DNA of 64,000 nucleotides from an uncultured Ignavibacteriota bacterium (GTDB taxonomy: Bacteria > Bacteroidota > Ignavibacteria > UBA10030 > UBA8401). Under the pieces are notes generated by a model. That model was not told where the DNA came from. It worked only from the letters and a program-made list of their open reading frames with translations, and ran no database searches. The stretch covers positions 62,001 to 126,000 of the forward strand of contig CAISDA010000033.1 of NCBI GenBank assembly GCA_903884005.1. Direction: 5' to 3'. The position numbers and the translations under genes were made by a program. This document shows, one piece after another, positions 26,875-41,394 of the stretch. Position 1 is the first letter of the stretch. Every line of letters begins with the position of its first letter.

Positions 26875-26985
26875 AACGCGCTGCCGTTCCATCGGTGCGA
26901 TGGAGGGCGAGATGTTCTATCGGTGCGATGTAGGGCGAGATGGTATCTCGCCCGCTCGAACGAAGCGGTGCACGTTGCTCTGAGG
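26875..26985 (+). repeat. extended REP-like element R3 with a 28-bp internal tandem duplication
   Basis: GTAG (26930-26933) leads into the perfect palindrome GGGCGAGAT-GGT-ATCTCGCCC (26933-26953), then cgctcgaacgaagcggtgcacgtt. Just before it, 26891-26918 and 26919-26946 are two near-identical 28-bp units (atcggtgcgat.gagggcgagatg...), the first a truncated half hairpin. It lies between the RND gene and the histidine kinase gene, convergent with it. Confidence 0.8.
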
Positions 26986-29341: not shown

Positions 29342-30193
29342 ATGGACTTCAATCCGCTCACCCCCGAAGAAGAACGTGTCATCGTTCGCAAAGGAACGGA
29401 AATGCCGTTCTCCGGAAAATTCAATTCCTTCTGCGAGGAAGGCATCTACACATGCAGGCGCTGCAATGCCGAACTCTATGCATCGTCCAATAAATTCGAT
29501 TCGCAATGCGGATGGCCGTCGTTCGATGACGTGATCACAGGCGCCGTTACACGGATACCGGATGCCGACGGGCACAGAATAGAGATCCAATGCGCCGCGT
29601 GCGGAGCGCATCTGGGTCATGTGTTCGCGGGCGAACATTTGACAAAGAAGAATACGCGCCACTGCGTCAATTCGATCTCCATGAGTTTCATCCCCGCAAT
29701 GAAAACAGCGGTAATCACGAAGGCAATTTTTGCAGGAGGATGTTTCTGGGGAATGGAATATCAATTCAAAAAGGCGCCTGGAGTGACCGCGGTGTATTCC
29801 GGATACACCGGAGGAACGAAAGCCGATCCGACATACAAGGAAGTCTGCTCCGGAACAACAGGCCACCTCGAGGCGATCGAAGTGTCGTTCGATCCCGCGA
29901 AGACGACGTACGAAGCATTGGCAACATTGTTTTTCGAAATACACGACCCCGCTCAGGCGAACGGCCAGGGCCCCGATATCGGTACGCAATACCGCTCGGC
30001 TGTCTTCTACGTCGACGATGAGCAGAAACACGTCGCAGAAACATTGATCGGCATCCTTCGGGAAAAAGGCTACACGATCGCGACAAGGCTCATTAAAGCC
30101 GGCACGTTCTGGAAGGCGGAAGAGTATCATCAGGACTATTACGCCAAGACCGACGGTGCGCCATACTGCCACGCGTATACGAAACGATTTTAA
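29342..30193 (+). CDS. msrBA: bifunctional methionine sulfoxide reductase, MsrB-MsrA order
   Basis: 283 residues. The N-terminal MsrB domain (1-118) has zinc ligands C38, C41, C84, C87 (CRRC and CAAC) and catalytic C108 in RHCVNSISM, preceded by the CGWPSF motif. After a linker of about 10 residues the MsrA domain (about 124-283) has catalytic C134 in GGCFWGMEY, YSGYTGG, GHLEAIEVSFDP and the EEYHQDYY tail. Together they repair both R- and S-forms of methionine sulfoxide. No signal peptide, so cytosolic. MsrB-first fusions are the less common order. The 245 bp upstream hold no gene that I can support. Confidence 0.96.
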   Translation: MDFNPLTPEEERVIVRKGTEMPFSGKFNSFCEEGIYTCRRCNAELYASSNKFDSQCGWPSFDDVITGAVTRIPDADGHRIEIQCAACGAHLGHVFAGEHLTKKNTRHCVNSISMSFIPAMKTAVITKAIFAGGCFWGMEYQFKKAPGVTAVYSGYTGGTKADPTYKEVCSGTTGHLEAIEVSFDPAKTTYEALATLFFEIHDPAQANGQGPDIGTQYRSAVFYVDDEQKHVAETLIGILREKGYTIATRLIKAGTFWKAEEYHQDYYAKTDGAPYCHAYTKRF

Positions 30194-32059: not shown

Positions 32060-32183
32060 CGCATGCGGCCTACTTTTTTCTCGAAGTAACTCGCTGCCGT
32101 CGCATCGGTGCGCATGTAGGGCGAGATGTTATCTCGCCCGCTCGAGCGAAGCGGTGCACGTTTTTGTGAGTTGCTCAAGAGCA
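32060..32183 (+). repeat. extended REP-like element R5
   Basis: GTAG (32116-32119) and the perfect palindrome GGGCGAGAT-GTT-ATCTCGCCC (32119-32139), with the same left flank (ctcg..gtaactcgctgccgtcgcatcggtgcgcat) and right tail (cgctcgagcgaagcggtgcacgtttttgtgagtt) as R1. R1 and R5 agree over about 110 bp. The rest of this gap, 32184-32466, is pyrimidine-rich and shows no gene. Confidence 0.85.
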
Positions 32184-32466
32184 GACAGGAACCGACACCG
32201 TCTTCACATCCGGAGACGGCGTCGGCATTCCCTCCATACCCTGAACACACTTTATTAGGGCTTATTCTCCCTACAACCCCGCATCTTTATACTTTCTTTA
32301 TAACTCCGCGCCCTTTCCTTATATCCGCATCTTTTTTTTATCCCGGCAATATTTTATATTTATTGTGTGTTGATGTGAGTTGCCATTTTTTTTCCACAAG
32401 CAGAAGGATCTCTGTTGTTCAGCAATGATGCATGCCGCCTCGTTCTGCTGGCACAGTCTATTATTT

Positions 32467-34314
32467 ATGTTCACGCCTCATTTTTACGTTACCATCGCTC
32501 TCAATCTCGCCATCTTCGGCATCTTCGGATACCTGATGACGAAAAAAGATCTCCTCTCGTATTTTTCAAATGGCAAATGGTGGCTGACATGGCTCTCCAT
32601 CGGCATCATCACGTTGATGGACGAACTCACATCCATTTTTTACGCTCCCAGCGAATCGTTCCGGTTCATCGGTCTGCACGCGATCGCGTTCCTCATTCTC
32701 ACGTCGATCCTTATTCGCTTTTTATCGATGCGCATGATCGAGATAGCTCAGATCCTGGAAGTGAACGGCATCCGCGGCGGCGGCGTCTATTCCTTCTCCT
32801 ATCTGGTGCTGGGGCCGACAGTATCGTTCATTGCGGTATCCTCGATCGTTGTCGATTACGTGCTGACCGCCAGCCTTTCAACGGTGAGTGCGGTTGAAAA
32901 CGGCATGTCCTTTTTTCCCGTCTCCGAAACCGGGAAATTCATCCTCGAGGTCGGTGTCATCTGGGCGATCGCCGGATTAAACATCCTGGGCATCAAAGAA
33001 AATGCGAAATTCACATACGGCATCTTCGTCGTGGCTGCGGTCATACTCATGAACCTGCTGTTCGGGGGCATCTATCATGCCGACCCCCAATCGTGGATGA
33101 CCATGGGAAAAAGTTTTGTCGATGTGGGCAAGACCCTCTCCGAAGGCGGTTGGTTCAGCGGATACTTCTTTGTCATCGTCGGCGTGTCGAGTTGTATCCT
33201 GGCGTATTCCGGTATCGAATCGGTGGTGCAGACGGCAAGTCTCGTCAAATCGTGGAAGGAGATCCGCAAGGCGTACACATTCCTCGGCATCACCGTGGGA
33301 ATTTTTACGCCATTGGTCGCGGCCATCGTGCTGTCGTCGCACATCAATATTTTAGAGCATGAAACGGACCTTATTACGCAATTTGCTAAGGTCGTCGGAG
33401 GCATTCCCTTCGGGTACATCGTCGGGATCCTGGCAAGCATTCTGTTGATGATGGCCGTCAACACCGCCTATGTCGCCTCGAGCGAGCTGATGGAGCGCGT
33501 CGCTCACCATTACGGATTTCAATGGATCATCAAGACCAACAAGCGCCAGTCGCTCTACCGCCTCCACATCGGCAATGCGATTTTTTACACCGTCATCATC
33601 TACATTACGGGAGGCAGCCAGAAGGTCCTTGCCGAAATGTATGCGATCGGCCTGCTGGCAAGCTTCGCGATCAACATGGGAAGCCTGCTGATCTACCGGT
33701 ATTCGAAGGGAACAAAGGAATCGCTGGAATACAATACGTCGCGCATCGGCACGCTGATCCTGTTCCTGATTCTCTTCAGCTGCTTCCTCTATCTCGGCTA
33801 TCATAAGCCGTTCGGCACCGCGATGTGGACTACGGTCACGGCGATATTCTTATTCGTCGGCTTGCGCTATGCTGAAAAACGGGCGCCCGAGAAAAAAGAA
33901 GTGCTGCAGACCGATTCGCCCATGCAGATGATCTTCCACCTTGTCGAATCGGACGAAGAGGAAGTGCATGTCTATTTCCGCCGCCCGAAAGAGGACGGAT
34001 CTCAGGTCGCCAATACGTCATCGGTCTACGTCAGTCTCTATCATCCGCGGCAGGGCATTTCGCCCAAGATCGCCGAAAATCATTTCCGCATCGCGTATCA
34101 GCGGCAGACGCTGTTTCAAGCGATCACCGAAATACTCTACGCGATCGAGTACGAACTGCCCCATAAAAAAATCACGATCCATCTCGGCTGGCCCACATCG
34201 TCCTGGCTGGACCGTCTCTCCACCGGCGTCATGATCTTCAGCGTCATGCATCTGCCGAAATATTTCCCGCGCCTGAATTTTGCGATGGAATATTTTGGGA
34301 AGGAAAAAGTCTGA
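32467..34314 (+). CDS. APC-superfamily permease with cytosolic C-terminal domain, possible KimA-like potassium transporter
   Basis: 615 residues from the ATG at 32467; in-frame ATGs at 32380 and 32425 are possible, and no clear ribosome site decides. About 12 helices are seen to residue 470, then a soluble domain of about 140 residues (QMIFHLVESDEEEVHVYFRRP ... YFPRLNFAMEYFG). APC signatures are NGIRGGGVYSFSYLVLG in TM2 and VDYVLTASLSTVSAVENG in TM3. The GGG(A/V)Y plus VDYxLT pattern and the long cytosolic tail recall KimA, the Bacillus K+/H+ symporter, rather than classical amino acid permeases. KdpD/KdpE-like regulators follow directly. Transport of K+ is inference; an amino acid substrate is the safe general call. 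Confidence 0.8.
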   Translation: MFTPHFYVTIALNLAIFGIFGYLMTKKDLLSYFSNGKWWLTWLSIGIITLMDELTSIFYAPSESFRFIGLHAIAFLILTSILIRFLSMRMIEIAQILEVNGIRGGGVYSFSYLVLGPTVSFIAVSSIVVDYVLTASLSTVSAVENGMSFFPVSETGKFILEVGVIWAIAGLNILGIKENAKFTYGIFVVAAVILMNLLFGGIYHADPQSWMTMGKSFVDVGKTLSEGGWFSGYFFVIVGVSSCILAYSGIESVVQTASLVKSWKEIRKAYTFLGITVGIFTPLVAAIVLSSHINILEHETDLITQFAKVVGGIPFGYIVGILASILLMMAVNTAYVASSELMERVAHHYGFQWIIKTNKRQSLYRLHIGNAIFYTVIIYITGGSQKVLAEMYAIGLLASFAINMGSLLIYRYSKGTKESLEYNTSRIGTLILFLILFSCFLYLGYHKPFGTAMWTTVTAIFLFVGLRYAEKRAPEKKEVLQTDSPMQMIFHLVESDEEEVHVYFRRPKEDGSQVANTSSVYVSLYHPRQGISPKIAENHFRIAYQRQTLFQAITEILYAIEYELPHKKITIHLGWPTSSWLDRLSTGVMIFSVMHLPKYFPRLNFAMEYFGKEKV

Positions 34315-34351
34315 TCGACGGTTCGGTGCAGGGAGAATTACTAACTCGCAC

Positions 34352-34381
34352 AAAGGGGAGCAGCCACCGCTGCTCCCCTTT
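34352..34381 (+). terminator. Rho-independent terminator after the APC permease
   Basis: 12-bp perfect stem AAAGGGGAGCAG / CTGCTCCCCTTT, loop CCACCG, followed by TATTTT, 38 nt after the permease stop. The sensor kinase downstream therefore probably has its own promoter in 34385-34492. Confidence 0.92.
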
Positions 34382-34492
34382 TATTTTCCATCGGATATTA
34401 TACCCCGCAGCGTCTGGAGCAGCTCTCCTGCCCGTTACCTCTTGCACATTGAGTGTTTCGATTAGCAGAATGAATTGCTATATTCGAATGAC

Positions 34493-36001
34493 ATGAATTA
34501 TTCTTTCGCGACATATACGAAGCCCGGCAGCCGCCCTGTACCGGTCCAATACGCCATCGCCGTCGGCATCATCATCGCGATTTCGCTGCTGCTGAGCCTG
34601 TCCTCCCATTATTTAGGCTACCAGGCTGTATCCCTCATCCTGTTATTCGTTGTCGCCATTCTATCCTTGCGGTTCGAGATCGGTCCCGTCCTGGCGGCCG
34701 CCGGAGCGAGCGCAGTGATCTGGAACTTTTTCTTCATCCCACCGCATTTCACACTGGCAATAGCCTCGGCTCAGGATGGTCTCCTGTTCTTTACGTATTT
34801 CGTCATCGCCGCGATCACCGTCACACTCACGTCGCGGATACGCACACGCGAGAACAGAGCCATGGCGTTGTTCACGCTCACGAAGCAGCTCATCGACGCA
34901 AAAACGCAGGATGAAGTCGCCCGGGCCGCGGTGAACAACATTGGATCGTTCTTCAACGCCGAGGTGCTCTTATACTTAAGCGAACACGACGGCGACGTCT
35001 TCACGCATCCGCATCCGGCAAGCACGCTCCATGCCGACCCCAAAGAATACAGCGTCGCCTCATGGGTGTATTGGAACGAAAAAAAAGCGGGGAAGTTCAT
35101 CGACAGGCTCCCCTTTTCTGTCGCCACCTATTACCCGATCTCCGGGCCGCGCTACCCGCTCGGCGTGCTGGGCATCCGGCTGAAAAGCGACAAGCAGGTC
35201 TCTCCCGAACAGGAGACGCTGCTGCAGAATTTTATCGGTCAGATCGCCTCCGCGCTCGAGCGCGAACAGCTCAATGAGCTCTCCAACAGAACGACGGTGT
35301 ATATGGAGTCGGAACGCCTCTATAAGACGCTCTTTAATTCCATCTCACATGAATTACGCACACCGCTGGCGGCTATACTGAACGCGGCAGAAGGACTGCA
35401 ATCCTCGCTGCCCGCTGCGAACAACTCGCAACACAACGATCTTGTCGGAGAGATACACACTGCCGTCGAACGGCTCAATCGCCTTGTCGAAAATCTTCTC
35501 GATATGACACGCATTGAATCGGGACATTGCGCCCCGTCGCTCGACTGGTGCGATATACGCGACATCATTAATGCCTCGCTCAAAAAGCTGGAAAAGGAAT
35601 TGAAGCATCACACCGTCATCGTTTCGATCGCGGACGATGTGACGCTCGTAAAATTGGATTTCGGCCTCATGGAACAGGCATTCACCAACCTGCTGCATAA
35701 CGCGTCGATCTATACTCCCGCAGGAACGACCGTCACCATTGAATCGAAGATCGAACGCAGCACGATCATCATTACGATCCATGATAACGGTCCCGGTTTC
35801 CCTCCCGAGACACTGCCGAAAATATTCGACAAGTTTTTCCGGATCCCCGGATCGAAAACCGGCGGATCGGGGCTCGGGCTGTCGATTGTCCGCGGATATG
35901 TCGAAGCCCACAAGGGAATGATCACAGCCGCAAACGTGCCGACAGGCGGAGCCCAATTCCAGCTCCGCATTCCGGCGGAAATTCATCAACCTGAACAATG
36001 A
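34493..36001 (+). CDS. KdpD-like sensor histidine kinase lacking the N-terminal KdpD/Usp domains
   Basis: 502 residues; the ATG at 34493 is used rather than a TTG six codons upstream. Four closely spaced helices (about 18-110) form the DUF4118 domain of KdpD (YLGYQAVSLILLFVVAILSLRF, FFFIPPHFTLAIASAQDGLLFFTYFVIAAITVTLTSRI), followed by a GAF-like domain (about 125-250), HisKA with H286 in NSISHELRTPLAAIL, and a HATPase with NLLHNASIYTP, DNGPGFP and GGSGLGLSIVRGY. It corresponds to the C-terminal half of E. coli KdpD; the cytoplasmic 350-residue N-terminal input region is absent. It probably responds to K+ or ionic stress and phosphorylates the following regulator (10-bp gap). Confidence 0.92.
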   Translation: MNYSFATYTKPGSRPVPVQYAIAVGIIIAISLLLSLSSHYLGYQAVSLILLFVVAILSLRFEIGPVLAAAGASAVIWNFFFIPPHFTLAIASAQDGLLFFTYFVIAAITVTLTSRIRTRENRAMALFTLTKQLIDAKTQDEVARAAVNNIGSFFNAEVLLYLSEHDGDVFTHPHPASTLHADPKEYSVASWVYWNEKKAGKFIDRLPFSVATYYPISGPRYPLGVLGIRLKSDKQVSPEQETLLQNFIGQIASALEREQLNELSNRTTVYMESERLYKTLFNSISHELRTPLAAILNAAEGLQSSLPAANNSQHNDLVGEIHTAVERLNRLVENLLDMTRIESGHCAPSLDWCDIRDIINASLKKLEKELKHHTVIVSIADDVTLVKLDFGLMEQAFTNLLHNASIYTPAGTTVTIESKIERSTIIITIHDNGPGFPPETLPKIFDKFFRIPGSKTGGSGLGLSIVRGYVEAHKGMITAANVPTGGAQFQLRIPAEIHQPEQ

Positions 36002-36011
36002 TCCATTGCCG

Positions 36012-36704
36012 ATGAGCACTTCAGCCGACATCCTGGTTATCGATGACGAAATTCAAATGCGCCGCCTGCTCCGTTCGACACTCGAATCGGCAGGGTATAC
36101 TGTGACACTCGCCGAAACCGGCAAAGACGGTATGCGTCTTGCGACCTCCGAACGATTCGACGGCATCATCCTCGATCTCGGACTGCCGGACATCGACGGC
36201 ATCGATGTGCTCAAAGAGCTGCGGCGCTGGGCGCAGTATCCCATACTCATCCTTTCCGTGCGGGCGTCGGAGCAGGAAATCGTTGCGGCGCTCGATGCAG
36301 GGGCGAATGATTATCTCACGAAGCCATTCCGCACCGAAGAGCTGCTGGCGCGGCTCCGGTCCGCGTTGCGATTATTTAATACCACGGCGTCGCGCGAAAC
36401 GGTCTTCACGGTGGGCGCGATCACCATCGATCTGGACGCGCACCTCGTGCGCAAGCACAACGAGATCGTCAAACTCACACCCACCGAGTTTTCACTTCTC
36501 GCATTGTTTGTACGGAATGCCGGAAAGGTTCTGACGCACAAGTATATCCTGCAGCAGGTGTGGGGGCCGAAGTATGAGGAACAAAGCCAATATTCGCGCG
36601 TGTACGTGGGCCAGCTGCGCAAAAAGCTCGAGGACGATCCGAACAATCCCGCAGTGTTCCTCACCGAATCGGGCATCGGCTACCGCTTCTCCGCCGGCGA
36701 CTAA
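36012..36704 (+). CDS. KdpE-like OmpR/PhoB-family response regulator
   Basis: 230 residues from the ATG at 36012 (a TTG two codons earlier is possible). The receiver domain has the acidic pair DDE (11-13), phosphoacceptor D55 in IILDLGLPD, and K in YLTKPF. The C-terminal winged helix ends VYVGQLRKKLEDDPNNPAVFLTESGIGYRF, typical of KdpE. No kdpFABC genes are in the window; a reasonable target is the APC permease upstream. It is followed by a REP-rich gap. Confidence 0.93.
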   Translation: MSTSADILVIDDEIQMRRLLRSTLESAGYTVTLAETGKDGMRLATSERFDGIILDLGLPDIDGIDVLKELRRWAQYPILILSVRASEQEIVAALDAGANDYLTKPFRTEELLARLRSALRLFNTTASRETVFTVGAITIDLDAHLVRKHNEIVKLTPTEFSLLALFVRNAGKVLTHKYILQQVWGPKYEEQSQYSRVYVGQLRKKLEDDPNNPAVFLTESGIGYRFSAGD

Positions 36705-36799: not shown

Positions 36800-36955
36800 C
36801 ATTGCAGGGCGAGATGTTATCTCGCCCATGCTTCACCTTTTTTCCTGTAGCGCACGCTGATATCTCGCCCTGGACGAGCGAATAGCTCGTCCTACGCGCA
36901 CCACAGATGCCGCCGAGTATTTTTTTGCAGCAGGGCGAGATGGCATCTCGCCCAT
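36800..36955. repeat. REP-like cluster R6 (three hairpins, mixed orientation)
   Basis: Three elements: GGGCGAGAT-GTT-ATCTCGCCC (36807-36827, plus, preceded by GCAG); GGACGAGC-GAATA-GCTCGTCC (36872-36892) with CTAC at its right foot, so inverted; GGGCGAGAT-GGC-ATCTCGCCC (36933-36953, plus, preceded by GCAG). A half-stem tatctcgccc lies at 36861. Head-to-tail pairing resembles a BIME. The 9-bp arms are perfect in elements 1 and 3. Confidence 0.85.
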
Positions 36956-36989: not shown

Positions 36990-39212
36990 ATGAATCGATT
37001 CATCCGCCTCTGCACGTTCGTCATCATTCTCTCATCATGCTTGCTCCTGGCCGCTGAAAAACAAAAAACATTGTACGTCTCTCACGCCGGGAGCGACATG
37101 TGGTCCGGCACGGCGGCATCGCCAAATGCGCAGAAGACCAATGGGCCCTTCGCCACGTTCGAACGCGCCCGCGATGCAGTACGGCAAGCAAAGAGCGGCG
37201 GCTTCACAGGCACGATATCCGTCTCCGTGCGCGAAGGCGTGTATCCGGTTTCACACACGCTGACTCTCGATTCCACGCTCTCTGGCTCTGCCGAGGCGCC
37301 TATTCTATGGAGCGGATATAAACGTGAATCGGTCCGCCTCATCGGCGGCACCGCGGTCAAGGGATTTGCTCCCGTCACCGACCCCGCAGTGATCGCGAGG
37401 CTGCCTCTTGACCTCCGTACGAAGATCCTTGTTGCCGATTTGAGAGCCCAGCACATCACCGACTACGGCACGATTCCCAACGGCATGAACCTGTATTATA
37501 AAGGCAAGCACATGCCCATCGCGCGCTATCCCAACCAGGGATGGCTCACCATCGCCGATGTTCCGCAATCAGGAGATTCGGTCCTCAATCCCGGCGACAA
37601 GAAGATCATTCGCAACGGAAAATTCGCGGGCAAACACTACGGCAGATTCGGTTACAGCGGCGACAGGCCGAGCCTCTGGGCGGCGAGCGGCGACAAGTGG
37701 ATGCACGGATATTTCGAATGGGACTGGCGCGACGCGTACCAGAAGATCGCGCGCATCGATACTGCTGCGCGTGAAATTTATCCCGCGCTTCCTCACCATC
37801 ATTACGGCTACGAAAAAGATCAGCGCTATTATTTCATGAATATCCTCGAAGAGCTCGATGCGCCGGGCGAATGGTTCCTCGATGCACAGAACGGGCTCCT
37901 CTATTTTCTGCCGCCCGCACCGCTTGCAGACGGAGACGTTCTCGTGTCGGCATTGAAAGAACCGATGATCGTTTTGGCCGGCGCGTCGAACATCCAGGTC
38001 CGGAACATGACGTTCGAATGTTCGCGCACAACGGCGGTGAAAATTTCAGGCGGCACCGGCAATACACTCGCAGGCTGCACCATCCGGAACATCGGCAATG
38101 AACCTGCCGTCGTCATCGACGGCGGTACACACAACGGTGTGCAGAGCTGCGATGTGTATGATGTCGGCGCCGTCGCGATCAAAATGAGCGGAGGCGACAG
38201 GAAGACGCTCGCTCCGGGCGGCAACTTTGTCGACAATAACCACATACACGGCTACGGTATGATCACGCAGGCATTCAGCGGAGCCGTCTTCTGCGAAGGA
38301 GTGGGAAACAGGGTGGCGCATAACAAAATGCACGACGCGCCGTTCTCAGGAATTCAATATTACGGGAACGAACACGTGTTCGAATACAACGACATCTACG
38401 ACCTCGCGCACGAGTCCGGCGATGTCGGCGGCATCAACACGGGCGCCGATTATTCGGACGAGGGCACCATGATCCGGTACAATTACATCCACGACTCGCA
38501 TGCGCGCGGGCACGGAGGATTTCGGGCCGTCTATCTCGATCTGCCCGGCTCGAACACCACCATCTTCAGCAATGTTTTTTTGAACGTCGACGTTGGAGTA
38601 TTTTTCAACAGCGGCAGGGACAACCTGGTGCAGAACAACATCTTCGTCCGCTGCAATCCGTCTGTGAACATCTACATCTGGCCGCACACCGCGATCTTCA
38701 AATACGGGGGGGCTTGGCGCCTTGTGGAAAAACTGGATGAGGTCAACTACAAGAATCCGCCGTACAGCCTTCGCTATCCGAAGCTCCCGAAATATCTCGA
38801 GGGAACAGATGTGGGACTTCCACATGGCAACCGGGTCGTCAACAACATCAGCTATGGAGGGAAATGGCTCGACTTCTCGGAGACGCTCGATTTCACGAAT
38901 AACACGGTAGAGAACAACCTGGTCGCAGATACCACGCTCATGGTCGTCACCAGGGCCTGGACGGAAAACATGGACCCGTATAACATCGGCTATGCGGCCA
39001 CATACCAATTCGGCGACACCACCATGACGAAAGAACTGGAACGCTGCGGCAACGTCCTCACGAAACGTGATCCAGGCTTCGTTGACCTGAAGCACGGCAA
39101 TCTGCAACTCAAGAACACGTCGCCGGCATATACGATGGGATTCAAACGGATACCGATAGAGAAGATCGGCCTCATGCGCGACGAGTTCAGACGCACACTG
39201 CCCGAACACTGA
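36990..39212 (+). CDS. secreted right-handed beta-helix glycosidase (GH141-like)
   Basis: 740 residues with signal peptide (MNRFIRLCTFVIILSSCLLLAA). It begins TLYVSHAGSDMWSGTAASP, the usual N-terminus of parallel beta-helix CAZymes. An inserted sandwich contains RYYFMNILEELDAPGEWFLD and GLLYFLPPAPL, which I associate with the GH141 family (alpha-L-fucosidases and xylanases). Helix coils follow (NIQVRNMTFECSRTTAVKISGG, NTLAGCTIRNIGNEPAVVI, NHIHGYGMITQAFSG, NDIYDLAHESGDVGGI, NYIHDSHARGHGGF). AAAGGAACC lies upstream of the ATG. It acts outside the cytosol; fucose release is plausible but not proven. It is convergent with the heparinase-like gene. Confidence 0.8.
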   Translation: MNRFIRLCTFVIILSSCLLLAAEKQKTLYVSHAGSDMWSGTAASPNAQKTNGPFATFERARDAVRQAKSGGFTGTISVSVREGVYPVSHTLTLDSTLSGSAEAPILWSGYKRESVRLIGGTAVKGFAPVTDPAVIARLPLDLRTKILVADLRAQHITDYGTIPNGMNLYYKGKHMPIARYPNQGWLTIADVPQSGDSVLNPGDKKIIRNGKFAGKHYGRFGYSGDRPSLWAASGDKWMHGYFEWDWRDAYQKIARIDTAAREIYPALPHHHYGYEKDQRYYFMNILEELDAPGEWFLDAQNGLLYFLPPAPLADGDVLVSALKEPMIVLAGASNIQVRNMTFECSRTTAVKISGGTGNTLAGCTIRNIGNEPAVVIDGGTHNGVQSCDVYDVGAVAIKMSGGDRKTLAPGGNFVDNNHIHGYGMITQAFSGAVFCEGVGNRVAHNKMHDAPFSGIQYYGNEHVFEYNDIYDLAHESGDVGGINTGADYSDEGTMIRYNYIHDSHARGHGGFRAVYLDLPGSNTTIFSNVFLNVDVGVFFNSGRDNLVQNNIFVRCNPSVNIYIWPHTAIFKYGGAWRLVEKLDEVNYKNPPYSLRYPKLPKYLEGTDVGLPHGNRVVNNISYGGKWLDFSETLDFTNNTVENNLVADTTLMVVTRAWTENMDPYNIGYAATYQFGDTTMTKELERCGNVLTKRDPGFVDLKHGNLQLKNTSPAYTMGFKRIPIEKIGLMRDEFRRTLPEH

Positions 39213-39228
39213 GAACCATGAGGCACCA

Positions 39229-39253
39229 TGTAGGGCGAGATGGTATCTCGCCC
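39229..39253 (+). repeat. REP-like element R7
   Basis: GTAG (39230-39233) and the perfect palindrome GGGCGAGAT-GGT-ATCTCGCCC (39233-39253), in the 50 bp between two convergent genes. Confidence 0.85.
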
Positions 39254-39263
39254 ATTTTTTTTT
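39233..39263 (+). terminator. REP hairpin plus T-run acting as Rho-independent terminator
   Basis: The R7 palindrome is followed directly by A and nine T residues (39255-39263), 20 nt after the beta-helix gene stop. Structure and position fit an intrinsic terminator on the plus strand. Confidence 0.8.
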
Positions 39264-41113
39264 CACCACGCAGAGAGCGGCGTCACACGCAGTGAATAGT
39301 TCGAATCCGCCCCGGGCCATTCGGGCGCTAAGAGAATGGATACGGTCACATTTCCCGCCGCCCCCGGAATCCTGACCATCAGACGGCTCACACCGATATT
39401 TTCATTCTGCGGCTGATCCTGATGAGCAGACTCGGATGAAAAAGCCGCGTTCTCGGGCGACAGGATCTTCGCGATCATCCTCTCCCCCTTGAGCGTCAGT
39501 TCTGCTTGCTTTGCGTTAATGATCCGTATCTCCGCATCGGTCGTCATACCCCAGGCGACCTCGCAGGCTTTCGCCAAACTGAATTCATCTTGTATCAGCA
39601 CCGATCTTCGTTCATCGACAACCTTCATGCCGCGAAGCACCGACGATGCACATCCGTCATACGCGTCGGTGAGATCGATGACCGAGAACGGTTCTGCGAT
39701 GCCTTCCCGATGCTTCACAAATGTTGCAACTGCATCCTCATTCTGATTTTTTCCGTTGAGCACAGGAATATTGTGACTGGCGGACATGAGCCTGTAATAG
39801 GTATACCGCAATGTGTAGAAATATTCCGGAAGGTTATAATTATCCGATCCCAGGTCGCGCGCCCATCGCACACCCATGGCATCGAGCTCAAAATTGCCCA
39901 GATCGAGATGCGCGTGATTCACCTTATTATAGCCGGCCTTGATGCCCACCCACAATGCATTCGTATCGGTCCACGAGCTTCGCGAAAAATAGAGCGCCAC
40001 CTTTCCGTCAAAAAATTTATCCAAGGCTCTTTTCGCCGGCACACTTGTATGCGGCCTGTACCAGATCACATCATACACACTGGCCGTGCGTGTTTCGAGC
40101 TGATCGATCACAAAATTCGAAAAATCATCGTTGTTATACACGTTAGCCAAGAACATCTCGGTATGGGGAGCTTCCAGCATTGTCCATTCGTGCGCATCGG
40201 CATAATTGAGCATCAGCCCGGTCGGCCCCGCCGTGTAGATCGGGAAATAACCGGTCAAGTTCATACCCGGCAGTTGTGACAATCCAAAATCCTTCCCAAG
40301 CGCCGTCTGCAGCGCGGAAATGCCATAGGCAGTGTAATCGGTAGCGTATCCCCAATACCCCGGCCCCTCACCCCACGCGCCGTCTGGACCGTAATTTTTC
40401 AGTGCAGAGGGAAGATACTCAATCGCCTTGGTAATAATGAATGAAGCCGCGGCAGAATCGGTTTCAGCAACAGCGAGCGCGCCGATAAGCAATCCGCCGT
40501 TGCACACCTGATTCCAGTTGTGTTCGACCTTCACCCACCATCTGTTTCCCTCGTACGCCGTCATCCCCCTCTTCACCGCATGCTTCATCAACCCGGCTCT
40601 GATGAGATCACGCGTCGGCTGGTCCATGTCGTTGTAGAGCCAGTCGTAGCCGATCGCCACACCATGCGTCATTTCGGCGACGTCCAGGAAGTGCGGCGGA
40701 TTCCAGTCCCTGAAAGCGCACACGGTCCGCATGTTTGCCTCAGCAGCGTCGAAATATTTTTTCTCGCCCGTCCACCGGTAGGCAAACGCAAGGTCATACA
40801 CGCGCAGCAGACATTCCTTGCTCTTGCTGAGCAGCCGCGGCCCGATGAACTCGCGCAGGATCGGCGGCTTCACCAGATGTTTGTCTGCCGCGGCGATCAC
40901 GTCCTGCGCATACCGGTTCAGGCGGCCGTCAGTGCCGCTCATTTTTTTCAGTTCCTGCAGCCGCGCATCGGTCAGAAGAAGCCGGGGATGATTTTTCGCC
41001 AGCGTTCGTAACACACCTTCTGGTTTTAATTCCTGCGCCACTTGCAATGCGCCAGCTAATCCAATACTAAGAGTCCAGAAGAGCAGGATGATTACCTGTG
41101 AAAATATTTTCAT
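39263..41113 (-). CDS. heparinase II/III-like polysaccharide lyase (alginate lyase-type fold)
   Basis: 616 residues from the ATG at 41113, which starts a signal peptide (MKIFSQVIILLFWTLSIGLAGALQ); ATGs at 41128 and 41137 are alternatives. The N-terminal alpha/alpha toroid has HPRLLLTDARLQELKKM, AFRDWNPPHFLDVAEMTHGVAIGYDWLYNDM, WWVKVEHNWNQVCNGG and DGAWGEGPGYWGYAT. The C-terminal beta-sandwich has GIKAGYNKVNHAHLDLGNFELDAMGVRWARDLGSDNY, the classical Hep II/III segment with the NHAH pair and the Asp-rich Zn site. It would cleave uronic acid polysaccharides by beta-elimination in the periplasm. No T9SS tail is present, unlike its relative at 53357. Confidence 0.9.
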   Translation of the reverse strand: MKIFSQVIILLFWTLSIGLAGALQVAQELKPEGVLRTLAKNHPRLLLTDARLQELKKMSGTDGRLNRYAQDVIAAADKHLVKPPILREFIGPRLLSKSKECLLRVYDLAFAYRWTGEKKYFDAAEANMRTVCAFRDWNPPHFLDVAEMTHGVAIGYDWLYNDMDQPTRDLIRAGLMKHAVKRGMTAYEGNRWWVKVEHNWNQVCNGGLLIGALAVAETDSAAASFIITKAIEYLPSALKNYGPDGAWGEGPGYWGYATDYTAYGISALQTALGKDFGLSQLPGMNLTGYFPIYTAGPTGLMLNYADAHEWTMLEAPHTEMFLANVYNNDDFSNFVIDQLETRTASVYDVIWYRPHTSVPAKRALDKFFDGKVALYFSRSSWTDTNALWVGIKAGYNKVNHAHLDLGNFELDAMGVRWARDLGSDNYNLPEYFYTLRYTYYRLMSASHNIPVLNGKNQNEDAVATFVKHREGIAEPFSVIDLTDAYDGCASSVLRGMKVVDERRSVLIQDEFSLAKACEVAWGMTTDAEIRIINAKQAELTLKGERMIAKILSPENAAFSSESAHQDQPQNENIGVSRLMVRIPGAAGNVTVSILLAPEWPGADSNYSLRVTPLSAW

Positions 41114-41394
41114 ATGATCTTTTGTCATGTGATCCATACCCTGCTCTAAAATTGCCGTCTGACAATGAGCCTTTTAAGTGAGCCAATATACTACTTTATA
41201 TCGGAATATTGCCGTGGCTCACTGAAATTTATCCGGTGTTTTCTCTGAGGGTGGGTCTCTGCGAAAGATTCTGAAACGCGATGAACAGAAAACACGAGAT
41301 GAGTTGACTTGGTGCTTATGAATGTGTAGTTTGAGAATCAGGTGAACACCTCCATACTCTTACGCTCTCTTCTTACAACGTCGACCACTCATTT

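Follow-up and report, generated by a model that had tools for sequence, protein, structure and literature searches.

In the genome of an uncultured Ignavibacteriota bacterium, the KdpDE two-component system has very probably been reassigned from an ATP-driven pump to a KimA-like importer, giving the cell a K+-limitation response without the Kdp pump. The locus lies in a stretch of 64,000 nucleotides, here called the window, in which three genes follow one another on the forward strand: a KimA-like permease of the APC superfamily, the putative K+ importer (32467..34314, 615 aa), a short KdpD (34493..36001, 502 aa) and a KdpE-like response regulator (36012..36704, 230 aa). An initial annotation of the window had placed the genes at these positions, as we find them, and had proposed potassium regulation of an APC-type K+ importer by KdpDE. 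That proposal is supported here, and we add to it a conserved box upstream of the permease, the same gene order in three MAGs, a genome lacking TrkH/KtrB and Kup, and the repeated occurrence of short KdpDE pairs beside other K+ transporters.

In textbooks KdpDE is the system that controls the Kdp pump. A published survey of KdpD architecture, drawn from 5495 species with an annotated pump, states that low K+ leads KdpD to phosphorylate KdpE, that its proposed K+ sensing sites are in the membrane and GAF parts, and that its N-terminal half acts on KdpB by phosphorylation at high K+ (PMC11018627).

Results

The permease and its likeness to KimA

The identification of the permease draws on domain, PDB, fold, site-residue and tree evidence. 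Pfam labels it AA_permease_2 and nothing else, and NCBIfam gives no match at E 0.01. Among PDB sequences KimA is the sole meaningful match (E 3.3e-10 with the single sequence, the next at 0.48 or above), and a profile search of the same sequences gives KimA at E 2.5e-14. An AF2 model built from 13 sequences (mean pLDDT 72) finds KimA best in Foldseek, at 1.7e-14, the best non-KimA structure scoring 1.5e-9. VIA-align gives a tie between KimA (Z 34.7 over the whole chain, rmsd 17-19 A) and LAT2 (Z 34.3 over the membrane part), so that the membrane part suits amino acid transporters as well as it suits KimA.

The KimA-like motifs noticed in the initial annotation are borne out by alignment, GGGVY and VDYVLT of the permease standing where KimA has GGGAY and VDYILT. 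As reported for KimA mutants, K+ uptake is abolished by changes at D36, Y43 or E233 and weakened at T121, S125 or Y377, T230 and D117 being dispensable (PMC6994465). The six residues important for uptake are all present in the permease, D36, Y43, E233, Y377, T121 and S125 corresponding to D52, Y59, E251, Y392, T134 and S138. We examined these positions in an alignment of 52 rows, including 33 orthologues, seven rows falling with KimA, three control amino acid permeases taken from related genomes, and three uncharacterised permease families of 570-700 aa, called X, Y and Z (L217, L221-L223; L028, L038; L030, L035). All six residues are kept in the seven KimA rows and, with the window among them, in 32 of the 33 orthologue rows, the exception being L181, which departs at two; none of the three amino acid permeases keeps any of them. 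As expected of dispensable residues, D117 is variable and T230 is replaced, by Ser in 32 rows and by Ala in one. Families X, Y and Z group apart and keep the six residues too, so the signature marks a wider group and does not by itself prove K+ as the substrate.

A GxG unwound motif in TM1 marks amino acid permeases. TM1 of the permease reads MDELTSIFY, as against GAIIGTGIF in the controls. The permease tree separates the orthologues (a clade with 100/100 support) from KimA with its relatives and from the amino acid permeases, each in a clade of its own; the fork ordering the orthologue clade with respect to KimA and X, Y and Z has a support of only 82/40. Thus the phylogeny that the initial annotation had called for gives no grouping with amino acid permeases, the three controls, which lack the KimA site residues, standing on their own branch. 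We infer that the permease imports K+, probably together with a proton.

A second property of KimA, control by c-di-AMP, does not carry over. R337, N237 and Y118 have roles in this control according to work on KimA (PMC10284832); in the permease R337 is replaced by Q352 and N237 by Q255, Y118 being kept, so that the c-di-AMP residues whose search had been suggested are largely missing. E. coli Kup is likewise reported without the KimA c-di-AMP residues (PMC10284832), and membership of the permease in the KUP family is therefore not excluded by their replacement. A c-di-AMP riboswitch of the ydaO type was also considered and rejected, no Rfam match reaching the gathering score between 20000 and 50000; around the three genes Rfam gave only two snoRNA matches, far under their cut-offs. 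The comparison does not support c-di-AMP control of the permease as in KimA.

A short KdpD and a KdpE-like regulator

The kinase had been described as a KdpD without its cytoplasmic input domains. This holds for the serine-kinase domain (PF02702) and Usp, both missing, and fails for GAF, which is retained: the Pfam domains are DUF4118 (the membrane domain), GAF_3, HisKA and HATPase_c. PF02702 was found neither in the kinase nor anywhere in the host genome. The best NCBIfam models are KdpD for the kinase, which aligns to positions 403-883 of that 895-long model, and KdpE for the regulator; both scores are below the equivalog cut-offs (286.8 against 1123 bits for KdpD, 255 against 325 for KdpE). 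Judged by its domains, the kinase is a histidine-kinase-only relative and not a full KdpD.

The closest PDB chain to the regulator is E. coli KdpE, at 4.9e-67. R193, R200 and T215 of KdpE are described as mattering for DNA binding (PMC3264566), and in an alignment of 25 KdpE rows the regulator keeps all three (E. coli numbering). Position 193 is His in two of the rows, L098 and L212, both from loci without the box described next; other box-less loci have Arg there.

A candidate KdpE operator

The KdpE site is reported to be a direct repeat of TTTA(T/C)A half-sites with a 5-bp spacing (PMC3264566), and the E. coli record has TTTATACTTTTTTTACA 5' of kdpF. The window has a sequence of the same form, TTTATACTTTCTTTATA (TTTATA-CTTTC-TTTATA), at 32286..32302 on the forward strand, 164 bp 5' of the permease start. 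TTTATA-N5-TTTATA has this one exact match in the window and none in 100 shuffles. The resemblance was first spotted by eye and tested afterwards, so it is the relatives that offer an independent test.

Relatives of the permease were collected as 92 loci besides the window, including the best 80 of at least 115 confirmed relatives; they hold 87 distinct permeases, five loci being present twice, and 87 of the 92 have a full 350 bp of upstream sequence. Among the listed loci the exact box occurs within 350 bp upstream only in L103, L104 and L105, at 90-93 bp from the permease start. L110, which is GC-rich, has TTTATACCTTCTTTATC, with one mismatch, about 91 bp 5' of the start. In these four the strand and place of the box are kept though the surrounding sequence has diverged. 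In an 88-row set, which omits five of the 80 loci, one-mismatch boxes also precede L159 and L182, and others precede L106, L111, L113 and L155, where they lie inside upstream coding sequence. Among the 87 distinct permeases listed outside the window, then, the box or KdpDE is confined to a small clade. Another sequence that looked conserved ahead of some orthologues, TATAAACAYGCTATNAA, proved to be the end of an upstream coding sequence (queA, read by eye) and was rejected.

Genome-wide there is no enrichment, the host genome having two exact boxes as against 10 matches to the reversed pattern, and the case for the box rests on its place and its conservation. The second exact box of the genome (G000:C8:40569-40585, L203:3570) precedes an Nramp-family gene, behind which comes an MgtE_N/CBS/PRC gene, and may be due to chance.

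Of the 73 regions that lie upstream of K-related genes at 31 loci, 13 have the exact box, compared with three of 207 other regions; the 13 include the window's own region, which prompted the test, and one L085 region counted twice, being shared by two divergent genes. The reversed pattern occurred in none of the 73, and shuffles (n=200) gave a mean of 0.095 and a maximum of 2. All three of the other boxes precede small ORFs ahead of K+ genes (L087, TrkH; L095, kdpC; L205, kdpA), and a box at L086, inside an over-extended ORF, was not counted among the 13. At the full-length kdp loci the box before the kdp genes is exact only in L095, L205 and L209, has one mismatch in L096, L105, L206 and L208, and was not seen even at one mismatch in L092, L207, L212, L213 and L215; the remaining pieces are cut or without a kdpA start.

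Transcript structure and neighbouring features

A terminator at 34352 had been taken to separate the transcripts of permease and kdpD. A terminator-like stem-loop of 13 pairs is indeed present 3' of the permease gene (34352..34381, forward strand), the longest of five stems found, as against 4.8 stems expected by chance in the region. TATATT, a candidate -10 element of kdpD noted by eye and without statistics, is at 34479..34484 (forward strand), 8 bp 5' of the kdpD ATG. The gap between permease and kdpD is much shorter in relatives than in the window, and TATATT is again seen, by eye, shortly before the presumed kdpD start in L103, L104 and L110. The terminator in the window, the short gaps in relatives and the TATATT of all four suggest that kdpDE may have its own promoter, TATATT being a candidate leaderless promoter.

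Several other features lie nearby. A dispersed palindrome, GGGCGAGATNNNATCTCGCCC, has eight copies with at most two mismatches in the window and none in shuffles (26933-26953, 32119-32139, 36807-36827, 36933-36953, 39233-39253 and three more), and looks like a REP-like intergenic repeat. Positions 29342-30193 hold a fused MsrB-MsrA methionine sulfoxide reductase gene (SelR and PMSR domains). Downstream are two convergent polysaccharide-type genes, for a right-handed beta-helix protein (36990-39212, forward) and a heparinase II/III-like protein (39263-41137, reverse).

Gene order in relatives and the KdpD tree

The order permease, short kdpD, kdpE was found by tblastn (>200 bits) in L103, L104 and L110, that is in three of the 92 listed loci; flanks exceed 3 kb on both sides in 44 of 75 loci, and short flanks cannot show the absence of KdpDE. 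The three KdpD ORFs have 507, 494 and 501 aa, respectively. Behind the L105 permease come KdpA, KdpB, KdpC and an N-terminal KdpD piece of 215 aa, where the contig ends; another contig of that genome (L202) starts with the rest of KdpD and has KdpE, and PF02702 is recognised on both pieces. KdpA is absent from the genomes of L103 (G296) and L104 (G297) and present in that of L105 (G298). Second copies of the permease occur in the genomes of L103 (L107, 72%) and L110 (L114, 68%), and L107 has neither box nor KdpDE. The named MAGs nearest by permease, among the matches listed, are called Ignavibacteriales, Ignavibacteriae or Bacteroidetes, and these matches extend, at 48-59%, to orthologues in MAGs labelled Deltaproteobacteria or carrying one of a few other names.

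In the KdpD tree the G298 kinase (L202, joined from its two contig pieces) is sister to four short forms (100/96), and L094_full branches next (96/84). L085_short groups with L209_full (97/92) inside an otherwise full-length clade. Because the permease of L105 stands ahead of kdpABC and a complete kdpD, it is probable that the serine kinase was lost along with the pump, and the simplest reading is one loss of the pump and the KdpD N-terminal half from a permease-kdp cluster.

Other K+ importers of the host

The host MAG (G000) is 4.53 Mb in 89 contigs, 100% complete with 0.37% contamination. The initial annotation had described the locus as lacking kdpFABC, and as far as KdpA is concerned this is true of the whole genome. 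It had also counted two things against its own reading, clustering with amino acid permeases and a kdpFABC operon elsewhere; neither was seen, the permease standing apart from amino acid permeases and the genome holding no KdpA. The TrkH/KtrB and Kup families have no match anywhere in the genome either. Run on 14 control genomes, the searches for KdpA, TrkH/KtrB and Kup were positive in 5, 11 and 6, respectively. With one copy in the genome at E 0.001, the permease appears to be the only member of the searched K+ importer families there.

Short KdpDE pairs across the phylum

How often does a short KdpD occur in the phylum? DUF4118 exceeds its cut-off in 29 of 296 genomes. Seventeen of these have a full-length KdpD frame (875-997 aa), nine a short one beside KdpE (G000, G035, G084, G146, G150, G202, G212, G257 and G273), and three are of other kinds (G093, G161, G214). 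Rejected as KdpD were G035:C17, G093:C23, G082:C140 and G214:C3, which score at most 102 bits to the window kinase and have no KdpE-like-scoring partner, and G161, which has no match above 100 bits; G000:C33:197263, G093:C22, G214:C5 and G047:C96 were left out of the sorting. KdpA is found in 15 of the 17 genomes with full-length KdpD and in one of the nine with the short form (G202; Fisher p = 2.3e-4, uncorrected for relatedness). In G160, one of the full-length genomes in which KdpA was not found, KdpB begins at a contig end and KdpA may be cut off.

A non-Kdp K+ transporter adjoins the short KdpDE at all nine loci: Kup at L086, L088, L089 and L091, TrkH at L087, TrkH-TrkA at L090, and a KimA-like permease in the window, at L085 (KimA at 1.9e-61) and at L098. 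Pfam confirmed one Kup, both TrkH and the TrkA; the remaining Kup proteins share 66-79% identity with that one Kup. The exact box is present in the cluster at eight of the nine loci; L098 has none even allowing one mismatch. The G212 kinase, of 658 aa, has no PF02702 or Usp match.

Discussion

We propose the following course of events. At low K+ the membrane/GAF part of the short KdpD would turn the histidine kinase on, and phosphorylated KdpE would bind the TTTATA-N5-TTTATA box at 32286-32302 and switch the permease on, which would bring in K+ by a KimA-like route, probably with a proton. With K+ sufficient, KdpD would act as a KdpE phosphatase and transcription would fall. The serine-kinase/Usp half, whose published target is KdpB of the pump, would be missing because the pump is missing. 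In a wider view, which we hold to be probable with less assurance than the reassignment at this locus, KdpDE is a portable K+-limitation switch which, in Bacteroidota, was transferred on more than one occasion from the Kdp pump to KimA-like, Kup or Trk importers, the serine-kinase half of KdpD being lost and the operator staying the same as in E. coli; in the present case the cell would be left with one regulated K+ importer.

Is the short KdpD a product of loss? The regulation could be as proposed and the short form ancestral, older than the fusion to the serine kinase. The KdpD survey does propose that the halves were once separate chains and were then fused (PMC11018627), and the 360-370 aa forms of other Bacteroidota group in a separate clade, which may be ancestral or derived. 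Against this, the short forms of the window's group are nested in full-length KdpDs, with L202 as sister and L094_full next, and L085_short sits with L209_full, which makes an ancestral short form unlikely. A slightly less likely possibility is that the permease carries another substrate, an amino acid or another cation, and that KdpDE is the leftover of a lost kdp cluster, kept for other targets. The Pfam name AA_permease_2, a TM fold common to amino acid transporters, and L105, where the permease is seen to have adjoined kdp before the loss, would all suit such a history. Yet the K+ site residues are kept, in a genome without TrkH, Kup or KdpA; the box before the permease is kept in four MAGs, in which kdp genes were lost or never adjacent; and other short KdpDE pairs adjoin proven K+ transporter families.

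One might also suppose that the K+ importer is constitutive, that the box match is due to chance, and that KdpDE controls something else. Over the whole genome the exact pattern is no commoner than chance would make it, one of its two sites precedes the Nramp-family gene, and most permease orthologues have neither the box nor an adjacent KdpDE. Chance would have to explain, however, why the box keeps its strand and place in L103, L104 and L105, with one mismatch in L110, and why 13 of the 73 regions upstream of K-related genes contain it, when the reversed pattern is in none of them and shuffles average 0.095, and we regard a constitutive importer as the least likely of these accounts. KdpDE control of a KimA-like K+ importer, following loss of the pump, is thus the reading that we prefer.

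Reassignment of KdpDE bears on the two-function model of KdpD, of which the pump-less pattern is an evolutionary test: in pump-less genomes the histidine kinase, the regulator and the operator stay, and the serine kinase that phosphorylates the pump disappears. The short KdpD is also a minimal sensor in which to study how the membrane/GAF part senses K+ when no N-terminal half is attached. For a permease family labelled by Pfam only as amino acid permease, the locus points to a function and to a regulator. Among the matches listed in the open-access literature we found no account of a KimA, Kup or Trk transporter governed by KdpDE in Bacteroidota, and none of a histidine-kinase-only KdpD in pump-less species, which is weak evidence of absence.

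Four known or newly found systems invite comparison. E. coli KdpDE-KdpFABC shares with the present locus the histidine-kinase half of KdpD, the DNA-contact residues of KdpE and the operator form, and differs in that the host genome here has no KdpA, the kinase has no serine-kinase/Usp half, and the adjacent transporter is of another family. KimA of B. subtilis, a K+/H+ symporter of the KUP family (PDB 6s3k, 8b70, 8b71), has in common with the permease its fold, its length class, all six functionally important residues and, by fold match, a cytoplasmic C-terminal domain; identity between the two is low, KimA belongs outside the 100/100 orthologue clade, and the permease here would be under KdpDE control. 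MAG JAQUOA01 (L105, L202) has an orthologous permease (82%), the box and the closest full-length KdpD, but it still has the pump and the serine-kinase half of KdpD. The other Bacteroidota short KdpDE loci found here have, like the window, a shortened KdpD, a full KdpE, a K+ transporter neighbour and, in seven of eight, the box. They differ in having other transporter families, and six of them have a still shorter kinase (359-370 aa in the aligned part); the one of these six run against Pfam, that of L086, is without GAF.
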